Positions 32,738 through 43,995 of a DNA stretch of 64,000 bases are shown here, piece by piece. The translations under genes and the position numbers were made by a program. Source of the DNA: Salinibacterium sp. G-O1 (GTDB taxonomy: Bacteria; Actinomycetota; Actinomycetes; Actinomycetales; Microbacteriaceae); assembly GCF_030063305.1 (NCBI RefSeq), contig NZ_JASISV010000002.1, positions 620,001 to 684,000 of the forward strand, given 5' to 3'. A model generated the notes under the pieces. The model saw nothing but the letters and a program-made list of their open reading frames with translations. It was not told the DNA's origin and did no database searches. How positions within the stretch are numbered: position 1 is the stretch's first letter; the number at the start of each line of letters is the position of its first letter.

Positions 32738-34204
32738 GTGACCTTCGAGACTTCAGAACCCAGCGGCATCGACCCCGCCGACCTCGACGTCGTGCTCAAA
32801 GTGCTCTCGCAGATGGCCGAGGTTGACGAAGAACATCCCGACTTCATCACGGTGCGCCGGGCGACGGCAAAGATGTTCAAGGCCGTCAAGAAAGAGCGTC
32901 GACTCGAGAAGCGTGCCGTCATCGCCGACGCCGACCGCAGCGTGATCGCCGCAACGGCCACGGGTGCGCCGGATCGCATCGACGACGAGACCCGGGGCAT
33001 CCCGATCAGCACGGCCACTACCGCGCCGACCGCGGGCACCCTCATCAAGGCGCGCGCCTGCTACATCTGCAAGAAGCCGTACACGGTCGTTGACGCGTTC
33101 TACCACCAGCTCTGCCCGGACTGCGCCGCAATGAGCCACGCCAAGCGCGATGCTCGCACCGACCTCACCGGCAAGCGGGCGCTGCTCACCGGCGGCCGCG
33201 CGAAAATCGGCATGTACATCGCGCTTCGGCTGCTGCGCGACGGCGCCCACACGACCATCACCACGCGCTTCCCCCGCGACGCGGTGCGCAGGTTCACGAG
33301 CCTGCCCGACTCGTCAGAGTGGATCCACCGGCTCAAGGTGGTCGGCATCGACCTTCGCGACCCGGCGCAGGTGATCGGTCTGGCTGAGGATGTCGCGGCC
33401 GCCGGCCCCCTCGACATCCTGATCAACAACGCCACCCAGACCGTGCGCCGCTCCCCCGGCGCGTACCAGCCGCTGGTGGATGCCGAGCTGGCGCCGCTGC
33501 CGGGCGGACCGCTTCCCGAGCTGGTCACCTTCGGGCACACCAACGACCAGCATCCGCAGGCCCTCGCGCGCTCCGTGTCGGCCCACCCGATCCTCGCGGC
33601 CGCGGCGGCCAGGGCCGACGAGCTCACTGAGCAGGCGATGGCCCCAGGCTCGAGTTCGCTCGAGCGGCTCGCAGCAGGGACCGCGATCGACGCCGGCGGG
33701 TTGCTTCCGGACCTGCACGAGGTCAATTCCTGGACTCAGCATGTCAACGAGGTCGACCCTCTCGAGATGCTTGAGGTGCAACTGGCGAACACCACCGCCC
33801 CGTTCATCCTGATCTCGAAGCTCAGGCCGTCGATGGCCGCAAGCGAAGCTCACCGCAAGTACGTGGTGAATGTCAGCGCGATGGAGGGTGTGTTTGGGCG
33901 CGGGTACAAGGGACCGGGGCATCCACACACCAACATGGCCAAGGCAGCCGTGAACATGCTCACCCGCACCAGCGCGCGCGAGATGTTCGAGAGCGACCGG
34001 ATTCTCATGACGAGTGTCGACACCGGTTGGATCACGGACGAACGTCCCCACCCGACGAAGGTGCGACTGGCCGAGGAGGGTTTTCACGCCCCGCTCGACC
34101 TCGTCGACGGAGCGGCCCGCGTCTACGACCCGATCGTGCGCGGCGAGGCCGGCGACGACCTGTTCGGCATCTTCCTCAAAGACTACGCACCCGGATCGTG
34201 GTAG
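32738..34204 (+). CDS. SDR-type oxidoreductase with N-terminal zinc ribbon
   Basis: A 488-residue protein. The first 100 residues are helical and charged; a zinc ribbon follows (C108-x2-C111, C126-x2-C129), then a Rossmann domain with LLTGGRAKIGMYIALRLL (151-168) and LINNAT. The catalytic Ser is plausible in VVNVSAMEG, but the usual Tyr of Y-x3-K is replaced: the sequence is T398-N-M-A-K402. A long insert (about 255-320) is Ala/Glu-rich. It is probably an atypical or non-catalytic SDR. GTG 32738 is chosen because TAGAAT (32727-32732) ends five bases before it. Confidence 0.8.
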   Translation: MTFETSEPSGIDPADLDVVLKVLSQMAEVDEEHPDFITVRRATAKMFKAVKKERRLEKRAVIADADRSVIAATATGAPDRIDDETRGIPISTATTAPTAGTLIKARACYICKKPYTVVDAFYHQLCPDCAAMSHAKRDARTDLTGKRALLTGGRAKIGMYIALRLLRDGAHTTITTRFPRDAVRRFTSLPDSSEWIHRLKVVGIDLRDPAQVIGLAEDVAAAGPLDILINNATQTVRRSPGAYQPLVDAELAPLPGGPLPELVTFGHTNDQHPQALARSVSAHPILAAAAARADELTEQAMAPGSSSLERLAAGTAIDAGGLLPDLHEVNSWTQHVNEVDPLEMLEVQLANTTAPFILISKLRPSMAASEAHRKYVVNVSAMEGVFGRGYKGPGHPHTNMAKAAVNMLTRTSAREMFESDRILMTSVDTGWITDERPHPTKVRLAEEGFHAPLDLVDGAARVYDPIVRGEAGDDLFGIFLKDYAPGSW

Positions 34205-35312: not shown

Positions 35313-35882
35313 ATGACCGGAACCTCACCGGTTCGTGCGCCGCGGCATCCAGAGGTCGACGGCCGCATTTTTGACGCGGCGCTCGACATTCTTCGCAAGC
35401 GTGGTCCGCTGGCGGTGAGCATCGAGTCGGTCGCGGCGGCGTCCGGTGTGGCGAAGACGACTATCTACCGACGCTTTGAGAACCGGGAATCCCTCCTCAC
35501 CGCCGCTATCAACACAGCCGCAACGGCTGTCGTGTTTCCTCCCGGACTCACCGCCAAAGATTCGCTGCGCTGGGTTCTTCGGCATGCCAGCGACACCATC
35601 GAGAATGTCGTTGGCAGGGGCACGGTCGCGGCCGTCATCATGAACGAAGATCCCCACTTCACCCAGTTGCTGCTGGGGATGATCCGCGGCTCGACCGCGG
35701 CGCTACGGGATGACCTCCGCGAACGGGCCATCGCCGGCGAAATCAACCGCGAGGTCGACATCGAACTGGCCATGAGCATCCTGCTCGGCGTCGTCGTCGC
35801 AGAACTCATCCGGGGCCGCACGACCGACGAAGCGTGGGTCGACTCAGTTCTTGTCCTGCTCTGGCCCGCTTTCGCGGTGTGA
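35313..35882 (+). CDS. TetR family transcriptional regulator
   Basis: A 189-residue TetR-type regulator. The helix-turn-helix is VSIESVAAASGVAKTTIYRRFENRESLLTAAI, followed by a short ligand-binding domain. TGAGGTGATG upstream of the ATG supplies a ribosome binding site. It is convergent with the alkyl-DHAP-synthase-like gene and stands at the left border of the proposed ether-lipid cluster, so it is a candidate regulator of that cluster; the 19-bp palindrome at 39153-39171 would be a suitable target, but no copy of it is seen at this gene's own promoter. Confidence 0.88.
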   Translation: MTGTSPVRAPRHPEVDGRIFDAALDILRKRGPLAVSIESVAAASGVAKTTIYRRFENRESLLTAAINTAATAVVFPPGLTAKDSLRWVLRHASDTIENVVGRGTVAAVIMNEDPHFTQLLLGMIRGSTAALRDDLRERAIAGEINREVDIELAMSILLGVVVAELIRGRTTDEAWVDSVLVLLWPAFAV

Positions 35883-35937: not shown

Positions 35938-37626
35938 TCAGCTCGGGATGATCTTGCCCGGGTTGAAGTTCTTGTTGGGGTCGGCGCTGTCGAACAGGCC
36001 CGCCATGATCTTCACGCCCTCAGCAGAGATGTCCTCGGTGATCCAGGGTGAGTGCTCCAGCCCCACACCGTGGTGGTGCGAGATCGTGGCGTGATTGTCG
36101 ACGAAGGCCTGCTGAATGGCGTTCTTGACGAGGTTGTATTCCGCGATCGGATCGTCGCCGAAGGTGAACGCGAACGTGAAGTACAGGCACGCTCCCGAGT
36201 GATACGAGTGCGACATGTGGCTCATGATCCAGCCATCGTTGCCGAGCTGCTTGTAGGCACCGTGGGCAGCCGCGTAGACCGCTTCGTGCACACCCACGAG
36301 CTTCGACCACGGTGCAGCCGTCTCGGAAACATCGCCAGCAGCTCCCATGTCGAGCAGGAAGTCGCGCAGGTACGGGGTGTCGAACTTCTTCTGGTCGTAC
36401 AGGATGCCGGGGCCGGTGCCAACGCCCATTCCGCCGTGCTTCTTGACGATGTCGTCGACGAGCGACTTCTGGTGCTTGGCATGTGAGACGCTGCCCTCGA
36501 AACCGATGAAAGACAGGCAGATGTCGTCGAGGTTCCAGCCCTTGGCCTTCATGATGCCTGGCAACGCTGACTCCGCCATGAACTTCGAGACGCCCTTGCG
36601 GTCTTTCGAGGTGGCCAGAGAGAACGAGGTTTCGCGCGAATCAGAGATTCTCGTGATCGAGGGCGCGGCATCCGACTCGCTGATCGCCTGCATGGTGGCG
36701 ATGCCCGTCTTCCAGTTGGGGAAGAAGTAGGCGTAGACGTCACGTTTGGCCGGGATGCGGTGAACCTGCACGGTCACCTCGGTGATCACACCGAGCCTGC
36801 CCTCGCTTCCGAGGATCATCTCGCGCACGCTGGGACCGCTCGACGTCGACGGGAGCGGGCGCAGCACGAGCACGCCACCGGGGCGCACCACGCGCATTCC
36901 GCGGGCGATGTCGGCGATGTCGCCGTACTTGTCTGACTGCATTCCGGATGACCGGGTCGCGACCCAGCCGCCGACCGTCGAGTGCGTGAAGCTGTCGGGG
37001 AAGTGACCGATGGTCCACCCCTGCTGGTTCAACTGTTCTTCGAGGTCGGGGCCCTGCGATCCGGCCTGGATGCGCGCGAGTCCGGAATCGGTGTCGATGT
37101 CGATGACCCTGCGCAGACGCCCGAGGTCGAGCGACACGATCGTGCGGGTCTCGCCGGGAATCGGCTCAAGGGTGCCGGCGATGTTGCTGCCGCCGCCGAA
37201 CGGGATGATCACCGCGTTAGCTGCGACCGCGGCATCCACCACCGCCTGGATTTCGGCCTCGTCAGCCGGGTAGATCACGACGTCGGGGCTGCGGAGGATG
37301 GCGTTGCCGCGAACCCGGATCAGGTCTCGGATGCTCTTGCCGTAGGTGTGCACGACGCGGGCCATGTCGTCGGTGGTGACGTTGTCGGATCCCACAATCG
37401 CGGTCAGCGCCTCGGTGAACTCGGCCGTGGCATTGCTCGCTGGAACATTCAGATCCTCGAACGATGGCTCACTGGCACGCTCGGCCGTATCGAGATCAAG
37501 CCCGACGGCGAACTTGACGAACGGTGCGAACCCTGGCTTGTCTTCGTGGTGGAACCCCACACCGTCGACTCCCCAACCCCACCACTTCATGTGGCGCACT
37601 GAGCTTCGGTCTGCAGCCTCGTTCAT
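35938..37626 (-). CDS. FAD-binding oxidase, alkyldihydroxyacetonephosphate synthase-like
   Basis: A 562-residue VAO-family flavoprotein. The FAD domain has VIIPFGGGSNIAGTLEP and HFPDSFTHSTVGGWVATRSSGMQS; the cap carries ACLYFTFAFTFGDDP; the motif ATISHHHGVGLEH near residue 515 matches the His triplet of AGPS, and it ends DPNKNFNPGKIIPS. AGPS swaps the acyl group of acyl-DHAP for a fatty alcohol, making the ether bond. Related FAD oxidases (D-lactate or glycolate dehydrogenases) lack that His triplet. It is last in a unit with a PlsC acyltransferase and an SDR, each overlapping by four bases. The assignment is good, the reaction inferred. Confidence 0.85.
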   Translation of the reverse strand: MNEAADRSSVRHMKWWGWGVDGVGFHHEDKPGFAPFVKFAVGLDLDTAERASEPSFEDLNVPASNATAEFTEALTAIVGSDNVTTDDMARVVHTYGKSIRDLIRVRGNAILRSPDVVIYPADEAEIQAVVDAAVAANAVIIPFGGGSNIAGTLEPIPGETRTIVSLDLGRLRRVIDIDTDSGLARIQAGSQGPDLEEQLNQQGWTIGHFPDSFTHSTVGGWVATRSSGMQSDKYGDIADIARGMRVVRPGGVLVLRPLPSTSSGPSVREMILGSEGRLGVITEVTVQVHRIPAKRDVYAYFFPNWKTGIATMQAISESDAAPSITRISDSRETSFSLATSKDRKGVSKFMAESALPGIMKAKGWNLDDICLSFIGFEGSVSHAKHQKSLVDDIVKKHGGMGVGTGPGILYDQKKFDTPYLRDFLLDMGAAGDVSETAAPWSKLVGVHEAVYAAAHGAYKQLGNDGWIMSHMSHSYHSGACLYFTFAFTFGDDPIAEYNLVKNAIQQAFVDNHATISHHHGVGLEHSPWITEDISAEGVKIMAGLFDSADPNKNFNPGKIIPS

Positions 37627-38318
37627 CTATTTCCCTTCTGAGAGCGCACCGGCATCGGTTGCACAGTTTCATGCAGGCGACGAACCTCGCCTGAGAGTCG
37701 CAGGGAGAACTGCTCGGCAGTCTCTCCCGGTTCGGGCAGCATCGGAGCGCCAAACACAATGGTTACAGGATGCCGACCGCGAAGGGGCCAGTTGACCCCA
37801 CGCGGCATTGCCGCGCTCGCGCCGACGAGCGCTATCGGCAGGCACGGCACCTTGGTCGCGATGGCAAGGGCGGCGGCGCCCGGCTTGAAAGAGCCCATCT
37901 CGCCGTATTTCGAGCGGCCACCCTCCGGAAAAATCAGCAGGGGCACGCCGCGTTCGAGCAACGCCCGTGACGACCCCGATCGTTTGCCCTCGGAGTTGCG
38001 CTCAATCGCGAAGGCATTGAAAAAGAGTGTGGTCAGCCATTTGCGCCACTGCACGTCGAAGAAGTAGTCGGCCGCGGCGCCGGCGGCGATGTAGCGCGAG
38101 AGCCGTCTCGGGAGGCCGCCGATGACCAGCGGCGCATCCAGATGGCTCGAATGATTCGCGATGGCGATGTACGGCGCATCGAGACCTTTGATGGCCGCCT
38201 CGCCCACGATCGTCACCCGCACCAGTCGCCAGACCACCGGTTTGAGAATTCCACGCTGCGCGACGAAGCGAACTCCAGCAACACCGGAGGAGGTGAAGCG
38301 ATCCATCGACGAACTCAC
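37623..38318 (-). CDS. 1-acylglycerol-3-phosphate acyltransferase (PlsC family)
   Basis: A 231-residue acyltransferase. ANHSSHLDAPLVIGG contains the NH-x4-D catalytic motif (His, Asp), and LLIFPEGGRSKYG the glycerol-phosphate-binding EGGR motif. It likely adds an acyl chain to lysophosphatidate, 1-alkylglycerol-3-phosphate or DHAP. It lies between the SDR and AGPS-like genes with four-base overlaps on both sides (GTGA and ATGA), so it probably acts on the same lipid. GTG 38318 is the start given by the overlap. Confidence 0.9.
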   Translation of the reverse strand: MSSSMDRFTSSGVAGVRFVAQRGILKPVVWRLVRVTIVGEAAIKGLDAPYIAIANHSSHLDAPLVIGGLPRRLSRYIAAGAAADYFFDVQWRKWLTTLFFNAFAIERNSEGKRSGSSRALLERGVPLLIFPEGGRSKYGEMGSFKPGAAALAIATKVPCLPIALVGASAAMPRGVNWPLRGRHPVTIVFGAPMLPEPGETAEQFSLRLSGEVRRLHETVQPMPVRSQKGNR

Positions 38319-39139
38319 TGGTTTTCGGCCTTCATGTCGTTATGTTCGGAGCCCTCACCCTGATGGGGTGCGTCAGATCGGCTTGAAGAAATTTTCGACG
38401 ACACCCAGTGAATCGACGCCCGGGGAGCATGTCGGGCAAACCAGGAGAGCAGTCGGTAGCGAACAGTCGGTATGGAGATCACCTTGCGACGATCAACGTC
38501 GCGAAGGGCGGCCGCTACGAGACGATCGGCGTCGATCCACATTGCTTCGGGAATCGAACTTGTGCGGATGCCGGCACGGCTGTGGAACTCGGTCTCAACC
38601 CATCCGGGCATGAGCGATGTCGCGGTGACCCCGGTCCCACGGAGTTCAACGGCCAGGCCCTCACTGTACGAGTTGACCCACGCCTTGATGGCGGAATACG
38701 ACCCCATGGTGATCAGTCCCGCGACGCTGCCGACGTTGAGGATGTTGCCGTGTCCGCGAGACCGCATAGAGCGTCCCGCCGCTGCACCGAGAATCAGCAC
38801 AGCCCGACACATAACGTCCATGGCATATTCATGGGACGACGTGTCAGCGTCGAGCAATTTCGTGTGCACGCCGAAGCCGGCGTTGTTGACGAGGAAGTCG
38901 ATCGGTCGCGATTCGTCGAGCAACCGCTCCGCCACGCGCGCCACATCGGCGCGCACGGCGAGGTCGGCGCTGAGCGTCTCGACGGTGATGCCTGAACGGG
39001 CATGTAACTCAGCCGCGACGGTGGCAAGCCGTGCTTCGTTGCGGGCAACAAGGACGATGTCGAAGCCTCTGGCGGCCAGTTGTCGGGCGAATGCGGCACC
39101 GATGCCGGATGTGCCGCCCGTGATGAGAGCCGTTGCCAT
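38315..39139 (-). CDS. Short-chain dehydrogenase, candidate acyl/alkyl-DHAP reductase
   Basis: A 274-residue classical SDR. ALITGGTSGIGAAFARQLA is the NADP(H)-binding start, VNNAGFGV follows, and the catalytic S-Y-K set is visible (Ser in GSVAGLI, Tyr and Lys in SYSAIKAW). Similar SDRs reduce 1-acyl- or 1-alkyl-DHAP; that role fits its position as first gene before PlsC and AGPS-like genes but is inferred. ATG 39139 is preferred to TTG 39145; TAATGT (39152-39147) lies seven bases before it and directly abuts the 19-bp palindrome, a likely operator. Confidence 0.87.
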   Translation of the reverse strand: MATALITGGTSGIGAAFARQLAARGFDIVLVARNEARLATVAAELHARSGITVETLSADLAVRADVARVAERLLDESRPIDFLVNNAGFGVHTKLLDADTSSHEYAMDVMCRAVLILGAAAGRSMRSRGHGNILNVGSVAGLITMGSYSAIKAWVNSYSEGLAVELRGTGVTATSLMPGWVETEFHSRAGIRTSSIPEAMWIDADRLVAAALRDVDRRKVISIPTVRYRLLSWFARHAPRASIHWVSSKISSSRSDAPHQGEGSEHNDMKAENQ

Positions 39140-39152
39140 GCCCAATACATTA

Positions 39153-39171
39153 CGCTACGGGTCCCGTAGCG
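39153..39171. promoter_or_regulatory. Perfect 19-bp palindrome between divergent lipid genes
   Basis: CGCTACGGGTCCCGTAGCG has nine-base arms around a central T. It directly adjoins the -10-like TAATGT of the leftward SDR unit and lies upstream of TACACT (39181-39186), a possible -10 for the rightward unit. Its position and symmetry are those of a TetR- or GntR-type operator able to control both units at once. Confidence 0.65.
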
Positions 39172-39222
39172 ACTGGCTAGTACACTTGACGGGATTGGTC
39201 CCGCGCTTTGGAGGTAGTTCGC

Positions 39223-40041
39223 ATGCCGGAACGTAAAGAGGCTCCCGCGGATGGGGAGGTCGACATGATGCACTTCCCGGCTCCCGAATTTGATGTTCGC
39301 GAGTATGCGCGGAGTGCTGCGGCCAGCCACCGGGACGAGCTCGGGCTCGATCACTACAAGACCAATCCCCTGACCGCCGAAACTCTCCGCCTGCTCAGGT
39401 ATCTGCAGATCATCGAGCGTGCCACGATGACCCACCTACGCGGAGTGCTCGTCACTGCCACTCACAAAGACGCTCGCATCACCGCATTCCTCACCACCTG
39501 GGCGTTCGAAAAATACTGGATTGCTGACGCGTTCGAGCAGATCGGTCTCGCACACCAGCCAGAGGGAACCGACGTCGACCGCGCGCCATTCATCACCCCT
39601 CCGGAACGCACCATCCGCGAAGCGATCTACGCCAACATCGTCGGGCTTCCCATGATCGCCGTGCACATGACGCTCGGCACGATCGACACCTGGTTGAGCC
39701 AGGCAGCGTATCGACGACTCATCGCCCTCGAGCCACACCCACAACTGACGAAGACGATCGAGCGGTTCCTTGAGTTGAAGGAGCGCCAGCTGGCCTTCTT
39801 CGAGCCGCAGTCACGGTACCGCCTGACCGAATCGGCTCAGGCTCGAAAAATCACGAAGCGTCGGCTGACAAAGACCCCGTGGCCGATCGGCGCGATGGCG
39901 GAACCGCCGCACGAAACCGAATTCTTTTTCCAGCGGCTCTTCGGATCCGCTCGAGAACTCGTCAGCGAGATCGACTCTCGTATTGACTCCCTCCCCGGCC
40001 AGTCCGGGCTATCACTAATCGGAAAGGCCGCCAGGCTGTGA
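39223..40041 (+). CDS. Degenerate ferritin-like protein, paralogue of 42516-43316
   Basis: A 272-residue helical protein clearly related over its length to the di-iron ferritin-like protein two genes downstream (shared pattern TNPL-x-E/P-TL, THKDARITAFLTTW, AVHMTLG, AFF). Of the six iron ligands in the paralogue, only the first (Glu65) remains: the others are Lys97, Ile100, Thr156, Lys186 and Gln189. It therefore probably binds no iron and may act as a partner or regulatory subunit. ATG 39223 has GGAGG eight bases upstream; the longer TTG start at 39208 overlaps that site. It overlaps the reductase gene by four bases (GTGA). Confidence 0.8.
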   Translation: MPERKEAPADGEVDMMHFPAPEFDVREYARSAAASHRDELGLDHYKTNPLTAETLRLLRYLQIIERATMTHLRGVLVTATHKDARITAFLTTWAFEKYWIADAFEQIGLAHQPEGTDVDRAPFITPPERTIREAIYANIVGLPMIAVHMTLGTIDTWLSQAAYRRLIALEPHPQLTKTIERFLELKERQLAFFEPQSRYRLTESAQARKITKRRLTKTPWPIGAMAEPPHETEFFFQRLFGSARELVSEIDSRIDSLPGQSGLSLIGKAARL

Positions 40042-42497
40042 CTGACACACCCAAGACGACCGCACGTTCATCCACGCCTGCGGCAAAGAAGCCTGCGGTC
40101 AAGACACCCAAGTCCTCGGCAGCGGCCAAGGTTCCTGCTGCCCGCAAGCCGCGCGCGACCCCCGCGACAACGGCGCCTGCGGGAGTGCTCACCAATGAGC
40201 ACGTCTTCATCACCGGTGGCACTGGCTTCGTGGGCCAGGCATTGCTCGAACGACTGTTGTCGTCGCATCCTGACACTCGCATGACCGTGCTGGTGCGAGG
40301 AAAAGGCAGCCTGTCCGGGCAGGCACGCCTCGCGGGCCTGCTGCGCAAGCCTGTGTTCAAAAACTGGATCGAATCCGTCGGCGAGGAAGAGGCACATCGC
40401 CAGTTCGCCAGCCGTGTGACAGCGCACGAGGGCAGCCTCGGCGCTGTGGGAACCCTTCCGGATGACATCGACGTCGTCATCCACAGCGCATCGACGGTGT
40501 CATTCGACCCGCCGATCGACGAAGCCTTCGACACCAACGTCGGTGGCGCGCACGGTGTGTATGGCGCTTTGCTCGCGAGCAAGAGCACCCCACACGTTGT
40601 GCACATCTCGACGGCCTACGTCGGCGGAATTCGCAAGGGCATCGCCCCCGAGGCATCCCTCACGCACAACGTCGACTGGCGCGCCGAGTACGAGGCAGCG
40701 AAGTCCGCCCGAATCCGCGTCGAACTGGAGTCTCGCCAGCCCGAAGCCCTGCGTGCCCAGCTCAACGCCGCCAAAGCCCGCCACGGCAAGACCGGCCCCC
40801 AGGCCGTCGCAGGGTTCGCCGAAGCCGCCCGCACAGCGTGGGTTCGCGAACGTCTCGTCGATTACGGCCGCACTCGCGCCGAAAGCCTCGGCTGGACAGA
40901 CGTTTACACCCTCACGAAGGCCTTCGCCGAGCGCGCCGCCGAGGAGCTGTGGGCCCAGTCCGGCCACCGCCTGTCGATCGTTCGCCCGTCGATCATCGAG
41001 AGCTCACTGCACCACCCGTTCCCGGGCTGGATCGACGGCTACAAGGTCGCCGACCCCCTGATCATCGCCTACGGTCGCGGCCAGCTGCCCGACTTCCCCG
41101 GCCTGCCCGACTCGATTCTCGACGTCATCCCGGTCGACTTCGTCGTCAATGCCGCACTGGCCGTGGCCGCGCGCGACGCCAAGCCGAACGAGCCGAAGTA
41201 TTACCACGTGAGCTCAGGTGCGAGTAATCCGCTTCCGTTCCACCGCATGTACGAGAACGTGAACCGATACTTCACCGACAACCCGCTACCGGACGGCACG
41301 GGCCACATCACCGTTCCGCTGTGGAGATTCCCCGGCGGTGTTCGCGTCGAGAACGCCCTCGCTCGCAAAGAGAAGCAGGCAGCGTCGGCCGAGCGGCTCA
41401 TCGAACATCTGCCCACCACTCCCCGCACCCGCACGTGGCTCGATACCGTCACCAAGGGCAAGCACGGCCTGCAGAAGCTTCGCGCGTTCACGGAGCTGTA
41501 CCGCGCGTATGTGCAGACCGAGATCATCTTCGACGACACCAATACCCGCGCACTGTTCCTCTCCCTCCCGGAAGAGGTTCAGAAGACCGAGGGATTCGAC
41601 GTCACCGAGATCGACTGGGAGGACTACTTCCAGAAGGTGCACTTCCCGGCCGTCACGACGCTCACCCGCGCGTTCGGCAAGCGTCCGGCGGCTAAGGAGC
41701 GCGCCACGCGCGCCCTGCCGCACCGCACCGACGTTGTGGCCATCTTCGACCTCGAAGGCACAGTCCTGGAGTCGAACCTGGTCAAGCAGTACCTCCAGCT
41801 GTGGTCGGGAAGCGTGCCGCGCAAGCGGGTCGCCCACGACCTCGCCAACTTCGCGTTCTCCCTGCCGAAGTACCTCAAGGCTGAGCGCCGCGACCGCGGT
41901 GAATTCATCCGCACCTTCATGCGTCGCTACAAGGGCTTCAAGGTCAGCGAGATTCAGGGCCTGGTCAGCGGAAGCTTCGGTCGCGCGATGTTGAGGCGAG
42001 CCTTGCCGGATGCCCTCAAGCGGGTGCAGGCACACCGCGACGCCGGACACCGCACGGTCCTCGTCACGGGCACCATCGACCTCATGGTCGAGCCATTCCT
42101 GCCGTACTTCGACGAGGTCGTCGCCGGAAGCATGCATGAGCGCGACGGAGTGCTCACCGGATTCCTCGCCGACCCGCCCCTCGTCGACGAGGCCCGCGCC
42201 GCATGGTTGCGTCACTACGCCGCGAAGAACGGCTTCGACCTCGAGCACTCCTACGGCTACGGCGACAGTCACGCCGACCTCGTGTGGCTGCAGCTTCTGG
42301 GCAACCCGAGCGTCGTGAATCCCGACATCAGCCTGTATCGGCACGCGATGGAGAAGCACTGGAACGTGCTCGACTGGAAACGTGGTCCCGCGACATCCAA
42401 GCCGATCCTGCCTATGCCTACGAACAACACAGCAGCACCCGAAGCGGCTGCATCCCACGCACAGAACAGCACGGAAGGAGTCGGGTCGGCCTCCTAG
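40038..42497 (+). CDS. Fatty acyl-CoA reductase fused to a HAD-IB phosphatase
   Basis: An 819-residue two-domain protein. Residues 1-50 form a Lys/Ala/Pro/Thr-rich tail. The reductase domain (about 52-545) has the NAD(P) motif VFITGGTGFVGQALLERLL (56-74), HSASTVSFD, and Y290-TLT-K294, as in FAR/male-sterility reductases that turn acyl-CoA into fatty alcohol or aldehyde. The C-terminal HAD domain (about 565-790) has FDLEGTVL (D571, E573, T575), VLVTGTID and GYGDSHADLVWL. The general acid Asp of D-x-D is Glu here, so phosphatase activity is uncertain. Fusions of this kind are known in actinobacteria as FAR-HAD proteins. GTG start by overlap with the preceding gene. Confidence 0.88.
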   Translation: MTDTPKTTARSSTPAAKKPAVKTPKSSAAAKVPAARKPRATPATTAPAGVLTNEHVFITGGTGFVGQALLERLLSSHPDTRMTVLVRGKGSLSGQARLAGLLRKPVFKNWIESVGEEEAHRQFASRVTAHEGSLGAVGTLPDDIDVVIHSASTVSFDPPIDEAFDTNVGGAHGVYGALLASKSTPHVVHISTAYVGGIRKGIAPEASLTHNVDWRAEYEAAKSARIRVELESRQPEALRAQLNAAKARHGKTGPQAVAGFAEAARTAWVRERLVDYGRTRAESLGWTDVYTLTKAFAERAAEELWAQSGHRLSIVRPSIIESSLHHPFPGWIDGYKVADPLIIAYGRGQLPDFPGLPDSILDVIPVDFVVNAALAVAARDAKPNEPKYYHVSSGASNPLPFHRMYENVNRYFTDNPLPDGTGHITVPLWRFPGGVRVENALARKEKQAASAERLIEHLPTTPRTRTWLDTVTKGKHGLQKLRAFTELYRAYVQTEIIFDDTNTRALFLSLPEEVQKTEGFDVTEIDWEDYFQKVHFPAVTTLTRAFGKRPAAKERATRALPHRTDVVAIFDLEGTVLESNLVKQYLQLWSGSVPRKRVAHDLANFAFSLPKYLKAERRDRGEFIRTFMRRYKGFKVSEIQGLVSGSFGRAMLRRALPDALKRVQAHRDAGHRTVLVTGTIDLMVEPFLPYFDEVVAGSMHERDGVLTGFLADPPLVDEARAAWLRHYAAKNGFDLEHSYGYGDSHADLVWLQLLGNPSVVNPDISLYRHAMEKHWNVLDWKRGPATSKPILPMPTNNTAAPEAAASHAQNSTEGVGSAS

Positions 42498-42515
42498 GCC
42501 AGCCCGCGGCATCCC

Positions 42516-43316
42516 ATGGCATTTGATATCGACAAATACACCTCAACCTCGAAGAAGGTTGTCTGGGGCGACCTCGACTTCGACCAGTTCAAGTCCAACC
42601 CGCTTCCCGAGAGCACGCTTCGCAGCCTCAGGTACATGGCCGATATCGAGTACCACACGGTGTGCTACCTGCGTGATCTGCTCGTCACGCCCTCCCACAA
42701 GGAGGCGGACGTCAGCGCGTTCATGACCATGTGGAACCGTGAGGAGTTCTGGCACGGCGAGGCCCTGTCGGCGGTGCTGGCCGCCCACGGCGTCACGCTC
42801 GACTTCGACCAGCTCAAGGCGACCAGGCTCAAGCTGGGCTGGAAGGATCGCCTCGACCCGATCAAACAGTCGCTGCTCGGCAACATCGTGGGTAAAGACT
42901 TCATCGCCGTGCACATGATCTGGGGGGCCGCCAACGAGTGGTCGGCTGTGGCCGCCTACAACCGGATGGCAGAGCTCGAGCAGCACCCCGTGCTGGCAGA
43001 GCTGCTGCGCCGCATCGCCAAGCAGGAGGCCCGCCACGTCGCGTTCTACGCCACCCAGGCGAGGGAGCGTCTCGGCAAGAGCAAGAAGGCCCAGGTGCTC
43101 GCGCGCTTCGCGCTGAAGAATGCGTGGGGTCCCGTCGGCTCGAGCGTGATGGAGCCAGCAGAGGTCACCCACGTGATGGGTCACATCTTCGCCGGCCCCG
43201 AGGGCTTGCGTGAAATTCGCAAACTGGACGAGCACATCTCTCGCATGCCAGGCCTCGAGGGCCTGACTATTGTCGAGAATTCGCTCCGCAACAAGTACGG
43301 CTACATCGCGGCCTGA
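42516..43316 (+). CDS. Ferritin-like di-iron protein
   Basis: A 266-residue helical protein with a complete four-helix-bundle di-iron ligand set: Glu45, E77-x2-H80, Glu141 and E171-x2-H174 (in EEFWHGE and QEARHVAFY). This is the pattern of acyl-ACP desaturases, ribonucleotide reductase R2 and aldehyde-deformylating oxygenase. Beside a fatty acyl reductase, a lipid desaturase or fatty aldehyde/alcohol oxygenase is the attractive guess, but it is inference. It begins 18 bases after the reductase gene with no strong ribosome binding site and is the last gene of the rightward unit. Confidence 0.82.
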   Translation: MAFDIDKYTSTSKKVVWGDLDFDQFKSNPLPESTLRSLRYMADIEYHTVCYLRDLLVTPSHKEADVSAFMTMWNREEFWHGEALSAVLAAHGVTLDFDQLKATRLKLGWKDRLDPIKQSLLGNIVGKDFIAVHMIWGAANEWSAVAAYNRMAELEQHPVLAELLRRIAKQEARHVAFYATQARERLGKSKKAQVLARFALKNAWGPVGSSVMEPAEVTHVMGHIFAGPEGLREIRKLDEHISRMPGLEGLTIVENSLRNKYGYIAA

Positions 43317-43431: not shown

Positions 43432-43995
43432 ATGTCTACCACCGCGATTGTCACCGAAATTGAGACCCGACTCCTGCAGAATGCGGGCAAGGGAGACGCT
43501 GCAGCCTTCAACGATCTTTTCAGCCGGATGAACTCGCGAGTGCTCGGTCTCGTCGTTCGAGTCCTCCGTGATCGCTCGCAGGCTGAGGAGGTCACCCAGG
43601 AGGTGTTCCTCGAGATCTGGCAGCAGGCCGGCCAGTTCGACGCGTCACGGGGCAGCGCCGTCGGGTGGATGCTGCGCAAGGCGCACAGCCGCGCGGTCGA
43701 CCGGGTTCGGGCGGCCGAGTCGAGCACCGTGCGCGACTGGCAGCTGGGCATCCGCGATCTCATCGAGACCCAGGATGAGACTGAGGATGTCGTCTCGCTG
43801 CGCATCCAGAGCGTGAGGATCGCCCAGGCGATGCACTGCCTGCCGGAGCTTCAGCGCGAGGCGATCGATCTCACCCACCTGCAGGGTCTGACTCAGACGG
43901 CTGCGGCCGAGTTGCTCGCCGTGCCGCTGGGAACCGTCAAGACCCGCGTTCGCACCGGCCTGGCCCGTCTGCGCAAGGAGCTTGAGGCGGCCTAG
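43432..43995 (+). CDS. ECF sigma factor (SigK-like)
   Basis: A 187-residue ECF sigma-70. Region 2 is FNDLFSRMNSRVLGLVVRVLRDRSQAEEVTQEVFLEIW and region 4 is LPELQREAIDLTHLQGLTQTAAAELLAVPLGTVKTRVRTGLARLRKEL. The sequence style (SRGSAVGWMLRKAHSRAVDRVR) is that of the SigK group. SigK genes normally sit beside a membrane anti-sigma (RskA), but the next gene is a convergent DUF2130 gene three bases away. Position directly after the lipid genes, same direction, suggests it may control them or respond to membrane state. Confidence 0.88.
   Translation: MSTTAIVTEIETRLLQNAGKGDAAAFNDLFSRMNSRVLGLVVRVLRDRSQAEEVTQEVFLEIWQQAGQFDASRGSAVGWMLRKAHSRAVDRVRAAESSTVRDWQLGIRDLIETQDETEDVVSLRIQSVRIAQAMHCLPELQREAIDLTHLQGLTQTAAAELLAVPLGTVKTRVRTGLARLRKELEAA

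Follow-up and report, generated by a model that had tools for sequence, protein, structure and literature searches.

A conserved six-gene block of actinobacteria from soil and water as a candidate aerobic ether-lipid pathway with a putative soluble vinyl-ether-forming desaturase

How might an aerobic actinobacterium form the vinyl ether of a plasmalogen? In animals and myxobacteria, this bond is made by the membrane desaturase CarF/PEDS1 (PF10520). The question is raised by a block of six genes (positions 35938-43316) in a 64,000-nucleotide stretch of the Salinibacterium sp. G-O1 genome, the whole of which is referred to here as the window. The block encodes an alkyl-dihydroxyacetonephosphate synthase (AGPS)-like flavoprotein, a PlsC-type acyltransferase, a short-chain dehydrogenase (SDR), a fatty acyl-CoA reductase (FAR) fused to a HAD domain (FAR-HAD) and two ferritin-like paralogues, FerA and FerB (together FerAB). 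We propose that these genes specify an aerobic ether-lipid pathway that may end in plasmalogens and in which FerA/FerB would act as a soluble desaturase forming the vinyl ether; taken as a whole, we regard this proposal as evenly poised between right and wrong. Ether-lipid synthesis by the four core genes (FAR-HAD, AGPS, SDR and PlsC) is very likely, and the assignment of vinyl-ether formation to FerAB is a close call, even at best. It is a tentative suggestion, falling slightly on the doubtful side, that FerA/FerB represents a second, unrelated aerobic solution to vinyl-ether formation, in the form of a soluble di-iron heteromer whose substrate would be a 1-O-alkyl glycerolipid or a soluble alkyl intermediate.

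The block and its core enzymes

An earlier note on this DNA had described six genes in two divergent units. All six open reading frames (ORFs) are present at those positions in the ORF list of the window, and the gene identities, which the note had read from motifs, were upheld by Pfam, NCBIfam and PDB comparisons. The left unit, on the minus strand, has the gene order SDR, PlsC and AGPS, and the right unit, on the plus strand, FerA, FAR-HAD and FerB. Four-base overlaps join AGPS to PlsC, PlsC to SDR and FerA to FAR-HAD, and the gap from FAR-HAD to FerB is 18 bases, so each unit resembles a single operon.

In the proposed pathway, PlsC, or a housekeeping acyltransferase, would acylate dihydroxyacetone phosphate (DHAP), and FAR-HAD would convert acyl-CoA to a fatty alcohol. 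AGPS would swap the acyl chain for this alcohol to give 1-alkyl-DHAP, which the SDR would reduce to 1-alkyl-glycerol-3-phosphate. Acylation at sn-2 and the action of ordinary head-group enzymes would then yield a plasmanyl lipid, to which the FerA/FerB pair would add a 1'-2' double bond and so convert the alkyl to a vinyl ether. FerB would provide a carboxylate-bridged di-iron site of the soluble acyl-acyl carrier protein (ACP) desaturase type and FerA would serve as a non-catalytic structural or docking partner, so that the two together would stand in for CarF/PEDS1, an unrelated membrane enzyme.

A phmmer search against all PDB sequences placed the AGPS of Dictyostelium (2uuu, E-value (E) 8e-117) first among the matches of the flavoprotein, followed by peroxisomal AGPS (4bby, E 2e-83) and, as the next family, D-lactate dehydrogenase (E 1e-20); the corresponding bit scores were 394 and 284 for the AGPS structures versus 77. 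The lactate/glycolate dehydrogenase reading, which the earlier note had named as a refutation of its proposal, is ruled out by this difference (E 8e-117 versus 1e-20). The HHH motif seen in that note corresponds to residues 517-519 and is kept in 112 of 112 aligned rows, and the alignment to the AGPS structures spans the HHH loop. R326 and R421, each kept in at least 97% of rows, occupy the alignment positions of R419 and R515 in the 4bby chain; we take the HHH loop and these arginines to be catalytically important, substrate-site residues of AGPS. By identity, the window flavoprotein is an AGPS, and its predicted reaction is the acyl-for-alkyl exchange on DHAP.

The remaining core proteins retain their characteristic residues. 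In PlsC, H56, S58, H59, L60 and D61, together with F130, P131, E132 and G133, are conserved in at least 97% of 110 rows. The SDR has as its top NCBIfam model mycolate reductase, at 164 bits and below the 380-bit cut-off of that model, and its Y150 and K154 are conserved in at least 97% of 109 rows. In FAR-HAD, the NAD_binding_4 domain and the C-terminal Sterile domain both score above their cut-offs, and Y290 and K294 are conserved in at least 97% of 105 rows. HAD domain membership is clear by profile (111.7 bits), with residues 570-575 reading FDLEGT, not FDLDGT. The catalytic DxDxT motif of HAD proteins is thus replaced: among the six commonest variants, DxEGT accounts for 97 of 105 rows and FDLDGT for 2. 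Because DxEGT stands in place of DxDGT, the domain may not be an ordinary phosphatase.

A DHAP acyltransferase was not identified in the window block, which holds PlsC as its one acyltransferase, and PlsC may acylate DHAP, or the sn-2 position, or both. A second PlsC-like gene is found between FAR-HAD and FerB in seven Subtercola loci and between FerA and FAR-HAD in a Phytoactinopolyspora locus (L113), as would be expected if two acylations are needed. The Subtercola blocks contain two extra genes, namely the second PlsC-like gene and, as judged by eye, a LarA/DUF2088-type lookalike (L116:7402-9102, L139:7596-9859 and the corresponding position of other Subtercola loci; also L180:4980-7516), and a similar pair adjoins FAR-HAD in genome G111.

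FerA, FerB and the dimethyl acetal phenotype

The earlier note had counted two ferritin-like proteins in the block. FerB has the full set of di-iron ligands, but FerA has lost both ExxH motifs. The series E, ExxH, E, ExxH is the ligand pattern of carboxylate di-iron enzymes, and in FerB the residues E45, E76, E77, H80, E141, E171 and H174 are invariant in 57 of 57 rows. All seven are kept in 104 of 106 rows of a wider set of distinct sequences, the other two (L049 and L050) coming from weak matches that are probably not FerB. FerA is 34% identical to FerB over 248 amino acids and forms a single group on the tree with a support of 100/100. Its ligand positions were counted on 98 distinct sequences, after removal of two badly cut rows of 100 (L062 and L064). 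The position of E77 holds K in 90 and R in 5 rows, that of H80 holds I, L, V or M in 96, and that of E171 holds K in 84 and R in 10; E45 is retained in all 98, E141 in 68 and H174 in 72. FerA as a second full di-iron protein was therefore ruled out, given that both ExxH motifs are broken and single ligand positions remain. A Glu-to-Lys replacement kept over most rows suggests that FerA is a maintained non-catalytic subunit rather than a decaying one; FerB is probably the only member of the pair that can be catalytic. These features of FerA and FerB go beyond the earlier note, as do the TetR/operator pair and the absence of CarF described below.

FerA had no Pfam or NCBIfam match at E 0.001. 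The Pfam matches of FerB are weak, with Rubrerythrin at its cut-off and FA_desaturase_2 (PF03405) below it (21.3 bits versus a cut-off of 22.7), and FA_desaturase_2 did not match FerA, so that by the curated threshold neither protein is a member. The predicted FerB model (predicted local distance difference test (pLDDT) score 86) gave as its best PDB match a plant delta-6 acyl-ACP desaturase at E 9e-4 and a template modelling (TM) score of 0.59. This match is weak and is the sole one of 430 PDB fold matches under E 0.001; the next were R2-like ligand-binding oxidases (R2lox) and DesA2. The predicted FerA model (pLDDT 88) matched R2lox best, at E 0.01. Within the ferritin-like fold, these matches suggest a place for FerB among the soluble desaturases and R2 proteins, without firm membership of one family.

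Dimethyl acetals are the established product of vinyl-ether lipids on acid methanolysis (PMC7472656), and branched dimethyl acetals have been on record for aerobic Subtercola from 2000 onwards (Mannisto et al., cited in PMC5945732 and PMC7472656). Subtercola vilae DB165 was reported to contain 17.0% iso-C16:0 dimethyl acetal, and dimethyl acetals are tabulated for S. frigoramans, S. boreus and S. lobariae in the same source (PMC5945732). There, iso-C16:0 and anteiso-C15:0 dimethyl acetals make up 3-17% of the peak area each in S. vilae, S. lobariae and S. boreus, and Agreia is said to have up to 4% of a dimethyl acetal (PMC5945732). All six genes are present in S. vilae DB165 (L116), S. lobariae, two S. 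boreus genomes and Agreia sp. Leaf210; the S. boreus loci are those of strains P27479 and P27444, and the published lipid profile is from a different strain. The weak fold match of FerB and the dimethyl acetals in block-bearing Subtercola (PMC5945732) both agree with the suggestion in the earlier note that the ether chain could be desaturated by a di-iron protein.

Further dimethyl acetals may be present under another name. By gas chromatography-mass spectrometry, the peak that the MIDI system called C14:0 2-OH in Kineococcus rubinsiae was identified as anteiso-C15:0 dimethyl acetal (PMC7472656). Another study gives a C14:0 2-OH peak of 15.6% for S. vilae and of 10.4% for S. boreus (PMC9287328); in Glaciihabitans tibetensis, one genome of which (L129) has all six genes, this peak is 4.2% (PMC7033078). 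Both a C14:0 2-OH and an aldehyde/dimethyl acetal peak are reported for Frigoribacterium adelgis D8 and F. faeni (PMC12823222), and two Frigoribacterium-labelled metagenome-assembled genomes (MAGs; L120 and L121) carry the block. Frondihabitans is said in PMC5945732 to be without dimethyl acetals yet to have 14:0 2-OH. By analogy with K. rubinsiae, the block suggests that the C14:0 2-OH peak in some Microbacteriaceae descriptions is anteiso-C15:0 dimethyl acetal, in which case plasmalogens in aerobes may be under-reported.

The block offers a named, testable gene set for the Subtercola dimethyl acetals and predicts a desaturase unrelated to CarF/PEDS1. If the proposal is true, many aerobic Actinomycetota would be plasmalogen producers by a pathway that we did not find described in the literature searched. 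In the openly licensed papers covered, which cannot prove absence, we found neither a gene assignment for the dimethyl acetals of Microbacteriaceae nor a link of a ferritin-like protein to vinyl-ether synthesis. AGPS homologues have already been reported in actinobacterial MAGs from the Black Sea (PMC11868695).

The possibility of a CarF hidden elsewhere in the genome was rejected, since PF10520 matched none of 149 relative genomes in a genome search and none of six Subtercola/Agreia genomes. The control genomes run with the 149 relatives were unmatched too; a phylum-wide run gave matches in 12 of 296 genomes, so the search works. In one of these twelve (G292), a PF10520 protein of 271 residues (164 bits, L241:2903-3718) is encoded next to a FAR and the C-terminal part of an AGPS with the motif SHHHGVG. 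FAR and AGPS would thus be accompanied by a CarF-like gene in one lineage and by FerA/FerB in another, a hint, from one small contig (L241), that FerAB fills the CarF slot. A 2022 review presents plasmalogens of aerobic bacteria as a myxobacterial exception, with true CarF otherwise reported only in Leptospira (PMC9131029).

Distribution, control and flanks of the block

A search of named genomes gave 308 relatives of FerB, and the loci of the best 80 were analysed. A search for the same block across Microbacteriaceae, which the earlier note had proposed, was positive: all six genes occur together in 66 of the 80 named loci (best 80 of 308), so the block is no chance neighbourhood. Ten of the 80 hold two of the six genes, eight of them FerA and FerB, one, on a cut contig, FAR-HAD and FerB, and one FerB with a generic SDR; the remaining four, all Jiangella, have FerB alone. 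AGPS and FAR-HAD are located elsewhere in the genome in the four Jiangella, in Naasia lichenicola and in the genome of L108. In three loci (L039, L043 and L044), the block genes all run in one direction and in a different order. The block is also carried by a Streptomyces megaplasmid. Just 3' of it lies a gene judged by eye to be transposase-like (L033:11235-11954), which may point to transfer of the block.

Within the genus of the window, full-length FerB is present in 20 of 27 genomes, and the same 20 hold AGPS and FAR-HAD. Among the other seven, G012 has a FerB remnant, the fragmented assembly G019 retains pieces of FerB and FAR-HAD, and the remaining five are without any match. The remnant (G012:C1:2663298-2663411) covers 38 residues at 63% identity in a genome with AGPS and FAR-HAD unmatched, and is a sign of block loss.

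Across the 149 relatives, which overlap with the 80 named loci, 41 genomes have close homologues of both FerB and AGPS, 4 of FerB only, 8 of AGPS only and 96 of neither, with kinship uncorrected. Counting close AGPS only, FAR-HAD accompanies AGPS in 49 of 49 genomes; FAR-HAD without close AGPS is found in seven of the 149, two of which have a distant AGPS. The sets were chosen by hand: of 53 genomes matched by FerB, 8 were excluded for a weak or fragmentary match; of 56 matched by AGPS, 7 for having a distant one only (approximately 35% identical); and of 59 matched by FAR-HAD, 3 for showing no more than a fragment or a match to the HAD part.

The TetR-family gene beside the left unit is paired with a palindrome between the two units, CGCTACGGGTCCCGTAGCG, which matches on both strands and is the single such site in the window at up to three mismatches. 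We surveyed 89 distinct intergenic regions, all from divergent loci with a short gap and related to one another. A relative of the window TetR (at least 44.5% identical) is encoded in 38 distinct loci, and the operator, allowing at most one arm mismatch, was present in all 38, in none of 38 loci without this TetR and in neither of two with a more distant one. It was also present in 2 of 11 loci in which AGPS is so close to the end of the stretch that TetR is out of view, and in 0 of 1780 shuffled regions. Both the operator pattern and the 44.5% limit were chosen after inspecting the loci, so these counts are descriptive rather than a blind test. The pairing makes control of the whole block by TetR likely in one clade, where TetR would bind the palindrome and repress both units; such control is likely absent in other clades that still keep the block.

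Table 1. Features of the six-gene block and its regulatory elements in the window
Feature	Position	Strand	Basis or remark
TetR-family regulator	35313..35882	+	Adjoins the left unit and is convergent with it; Pfam TetR_N 43.7 bits
AGPS-like flavoprotein (alkyl-dihydroxyacetonephosphate synthase)	35938..37626	-	Pfam FAD_binding_4 and FAD-oxidase_C
PlsC-type acyltransferase (proposed acyl-DHAP or sn-2 acyltransferase)	37623..38318	-	Pfam Acyltransferase 64.7 bits
Short-chain dehydrogenase (proposed alkyl/acyl-DHAP reductase)	38315..39145	-	Pfam adh_short 138 bits
Palindrome CGCTACGGGTCCCGTAGCG, candidate TetR operator	39153..39171	.	Between the divergent units
FerA, FerB paralogue without the two ExxH motifs	39208..40041	+	Paralogy and ligand columns
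FAR-HAD (fatty acyl-CoA reductase fused to HAD domain)	40038..42497	+	NAD_binding_4 157.5, HAD 111.7 and Sterile 37.6 bits
FerB, di-iron carboxylate type protein, proposed desaturase	42516..43316	+	Invariant ligands and weak fold match

Besides, two neighbouring genes recur near the block. Just 3' of FerB, at 43432-43995, lies the gene of an extracytoplasmic function (ECF) sigma factor (SigK-like, PRK09646 198.7 bits, below cut-off), and an ECF sigma factor gene also adjoins the block in Salinibacterium xinjiangense (L079; 74% identical). At 33053-34204, the window encodes an SDR-like protein with, as judged by eye, an N-terminal zinc-ribbon-like stretch; it is found near the block in several relatives, 70-97% conserved where present, and is not a block member.

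Alternative explanations and known systems

Several observations weigh against a vinyl-ether-forming role of FerAB. From the side of the core genes, 8 of the 49 core genomes are without close FerB. In G117 and G148, FAR-HAD, SDR, PlsC and AGPS are clustered with no FerAB; in G100 and G133, the same four genes are clustered and FerAB is at a separate locus; and in Kineococcus radiotolerans (G135), G103, G114 and G145, AGPS and FAR-HAD lie apart. Beside the FerAB-free core genes, inspection of ORF starts by eye revealed no obvious candidate for a substitute desaturase. From the side of FerAB, two Microbacteriaceae genomes (G051 and G083) and six Agromyces/Leifsonia-labelled genomes (G156-G161) have the pair but neither AGPS nor FAR-HAD, Glaciibacter flavus has a seventh FerAB-only locus, and G387 has FerAB without AGPS. 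FerAB is therefore usable without AGPS, the simplest account being core loss and a change of role. Across the phylum, AGPS (E 1e-60) is present in 5 of 23 FerB genomes, the window's own included, and four of the five are distant AGPS; the FerB homologues elsewhere in the phylum are mostly lone genes, in neighbourhoods that, by eye, have no common theme.

Lipid profiles and protein properties add to these points. The C14:0 2-OH peak reported for Lacisediminihabitans profunda is only a trace (PMC7033078), and two Lacisediminihabitans-labelled genomes (L095 and L106) carry the block; for S. endophyticus, whose genome is outside those compared, the 14:0 2-OH peak is given as undetected in PMC9287328. 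FerB is unmatched even at E 1 in K. radiotolerans, which has AGPS and FAR-HAD, while K. rubinsiae has 2.9% of a dimethyl acetal (PMC7472656), so another route may exist in Kineococcus. Eleven of the 12 phylum genomes with PF10520 come from a single family, and no member of this eleven appears among the AGPS matches (the samples may differ); PF10520 alone is thus no plasmalogen marker, and in these genomes it must have a different function or work alongside other genes. The fold match of FerB is weak (TM-score 0.59, 13% identity). Moreover, a soluble FerAB must reach a membrane lipid, and an earlier, more soluble intermediate may be the substrate. For Salinibacterium sp. G-O1 itself, we infer the joint pathway from the gene content of its window.

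Considering these points, the alternative that survives best is that the core (FAR-HAD, AGPS, SDR and PlsC) makes saturated 1-O-alkyl lipids and FerAB catalyses some other oxidation, for example by introducing in-chain double bonds or hydroxyl groups into acyl or alkyl chains or by oxidising stray fatty aldehydes, with the Subtercola dimethyl acetals coming from elsewhere. We consider this possible, though somewhat unlikely. It would account for the eight Agromyces/Leifsonia-type genomes (G051, G083 and G156-G161) that keep FerAB without AGPS and FAR-HAD, for the lone FerB homologues in other actinobacterial lineages and for the eight of 49 core genomes without close FerB. However, the sampled FerAB-only members are nested among block-bearing ones in the A part of the tree as well as in the B part, so that the FerAB-only state looks derived, and block strains contain branched dimethyl acetals (PMC5945732) with PF10520 unmatched.

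It is improbable that the Subtercola dimethyl acetals arise from the anaerobic reductive PlsA/PlsR route, with the block yielding only alkyl ethers or fatty alcohol. Although pls genes are reported in some Actinomycetales, the same source describes the route for anaerobes and some facultative anaerobes (PMC9702350), and the nine block and flank proteins scanned show no PlsA/PlsR-type profile, no genome-wide search having been made. Least probable of all is a block that supplies fatty alcohols for wax esters or glycolipids, its flavoprotein being a paralogue, of alkyl-transfer or dehydrogenase type, that acts on a different substrate: FAR-HAD is clearly a fatty acyl reductase and is present without close AGPS in 7 of the 149 relatives (two with a distant one), but the flavoprotein is far nearer AGPS than any dehydrogenase, with its HHH motif and two arginines conserved, and none of the nine window proteins scanned matches the wax-ester synthase profile.

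The proposed aerobic plasmalogen pathway can be compared with several known systems. The closest fold to FerB, though by a weak match, is that of the soluble acyl-ACP desaturases, including DesA2 of Mycobacterium tuberculosis (7t63, E 9e-4; 1za0, E 4e-3), with which it appears to share the E..ExxH..E..ExxH pattern. DesA1 and DesA2 are also a paralogue pair, like FerA and FerB. In contrast to these desaturases, FerB is tied to ether-lipid genes, is 13-17% identical to them and scores below the cut-off of FA_desaturase_2. R2lox, which has a ferritin-like fold, is the best match for FerA (E 0.01) and one of the top matches for FerB, whereas FerA is without both ExxH motifs and the TM-scores by query length are approximately 0.4-0.6.

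The mammalian peroxisomal pathway (FAR1, GNPAT, AGPS, an SDR reductase and PEDS1/TMEM189) matches the block in kind in its FAR, AGPS, SDR and acyltransferase functions, and peroxisomal AGPS can be aligned with the window AGPS over almost the whole length. It differs in that the window block has one acyltransferase and in that PEDS1 is a histidine-rich membrane protein, whereas FerB is of the soluble carboxylate di-iron type.

Among bacteria, Myxococcus xanthus is a close parallel, being an aerobe that makes branched-chain ether lipids, with CarF (PMC9131029). Its MXAN_1676-1674 operon combines AGPS, an acyltransferase and an NAD-dependent oxidoreductase, as the window block does, and its elb operon encodes a FAR domain (ElbD) and a HAD protein (ElbB), functions that are also found in the block (PMC9131029). 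Unlike in M. xanthus, the window FAR is fused to HAD rather than to ACS/ACP, PF10520 has zero matches, and the functions are gathered in one divergent block together with the FerA/FerB pair.

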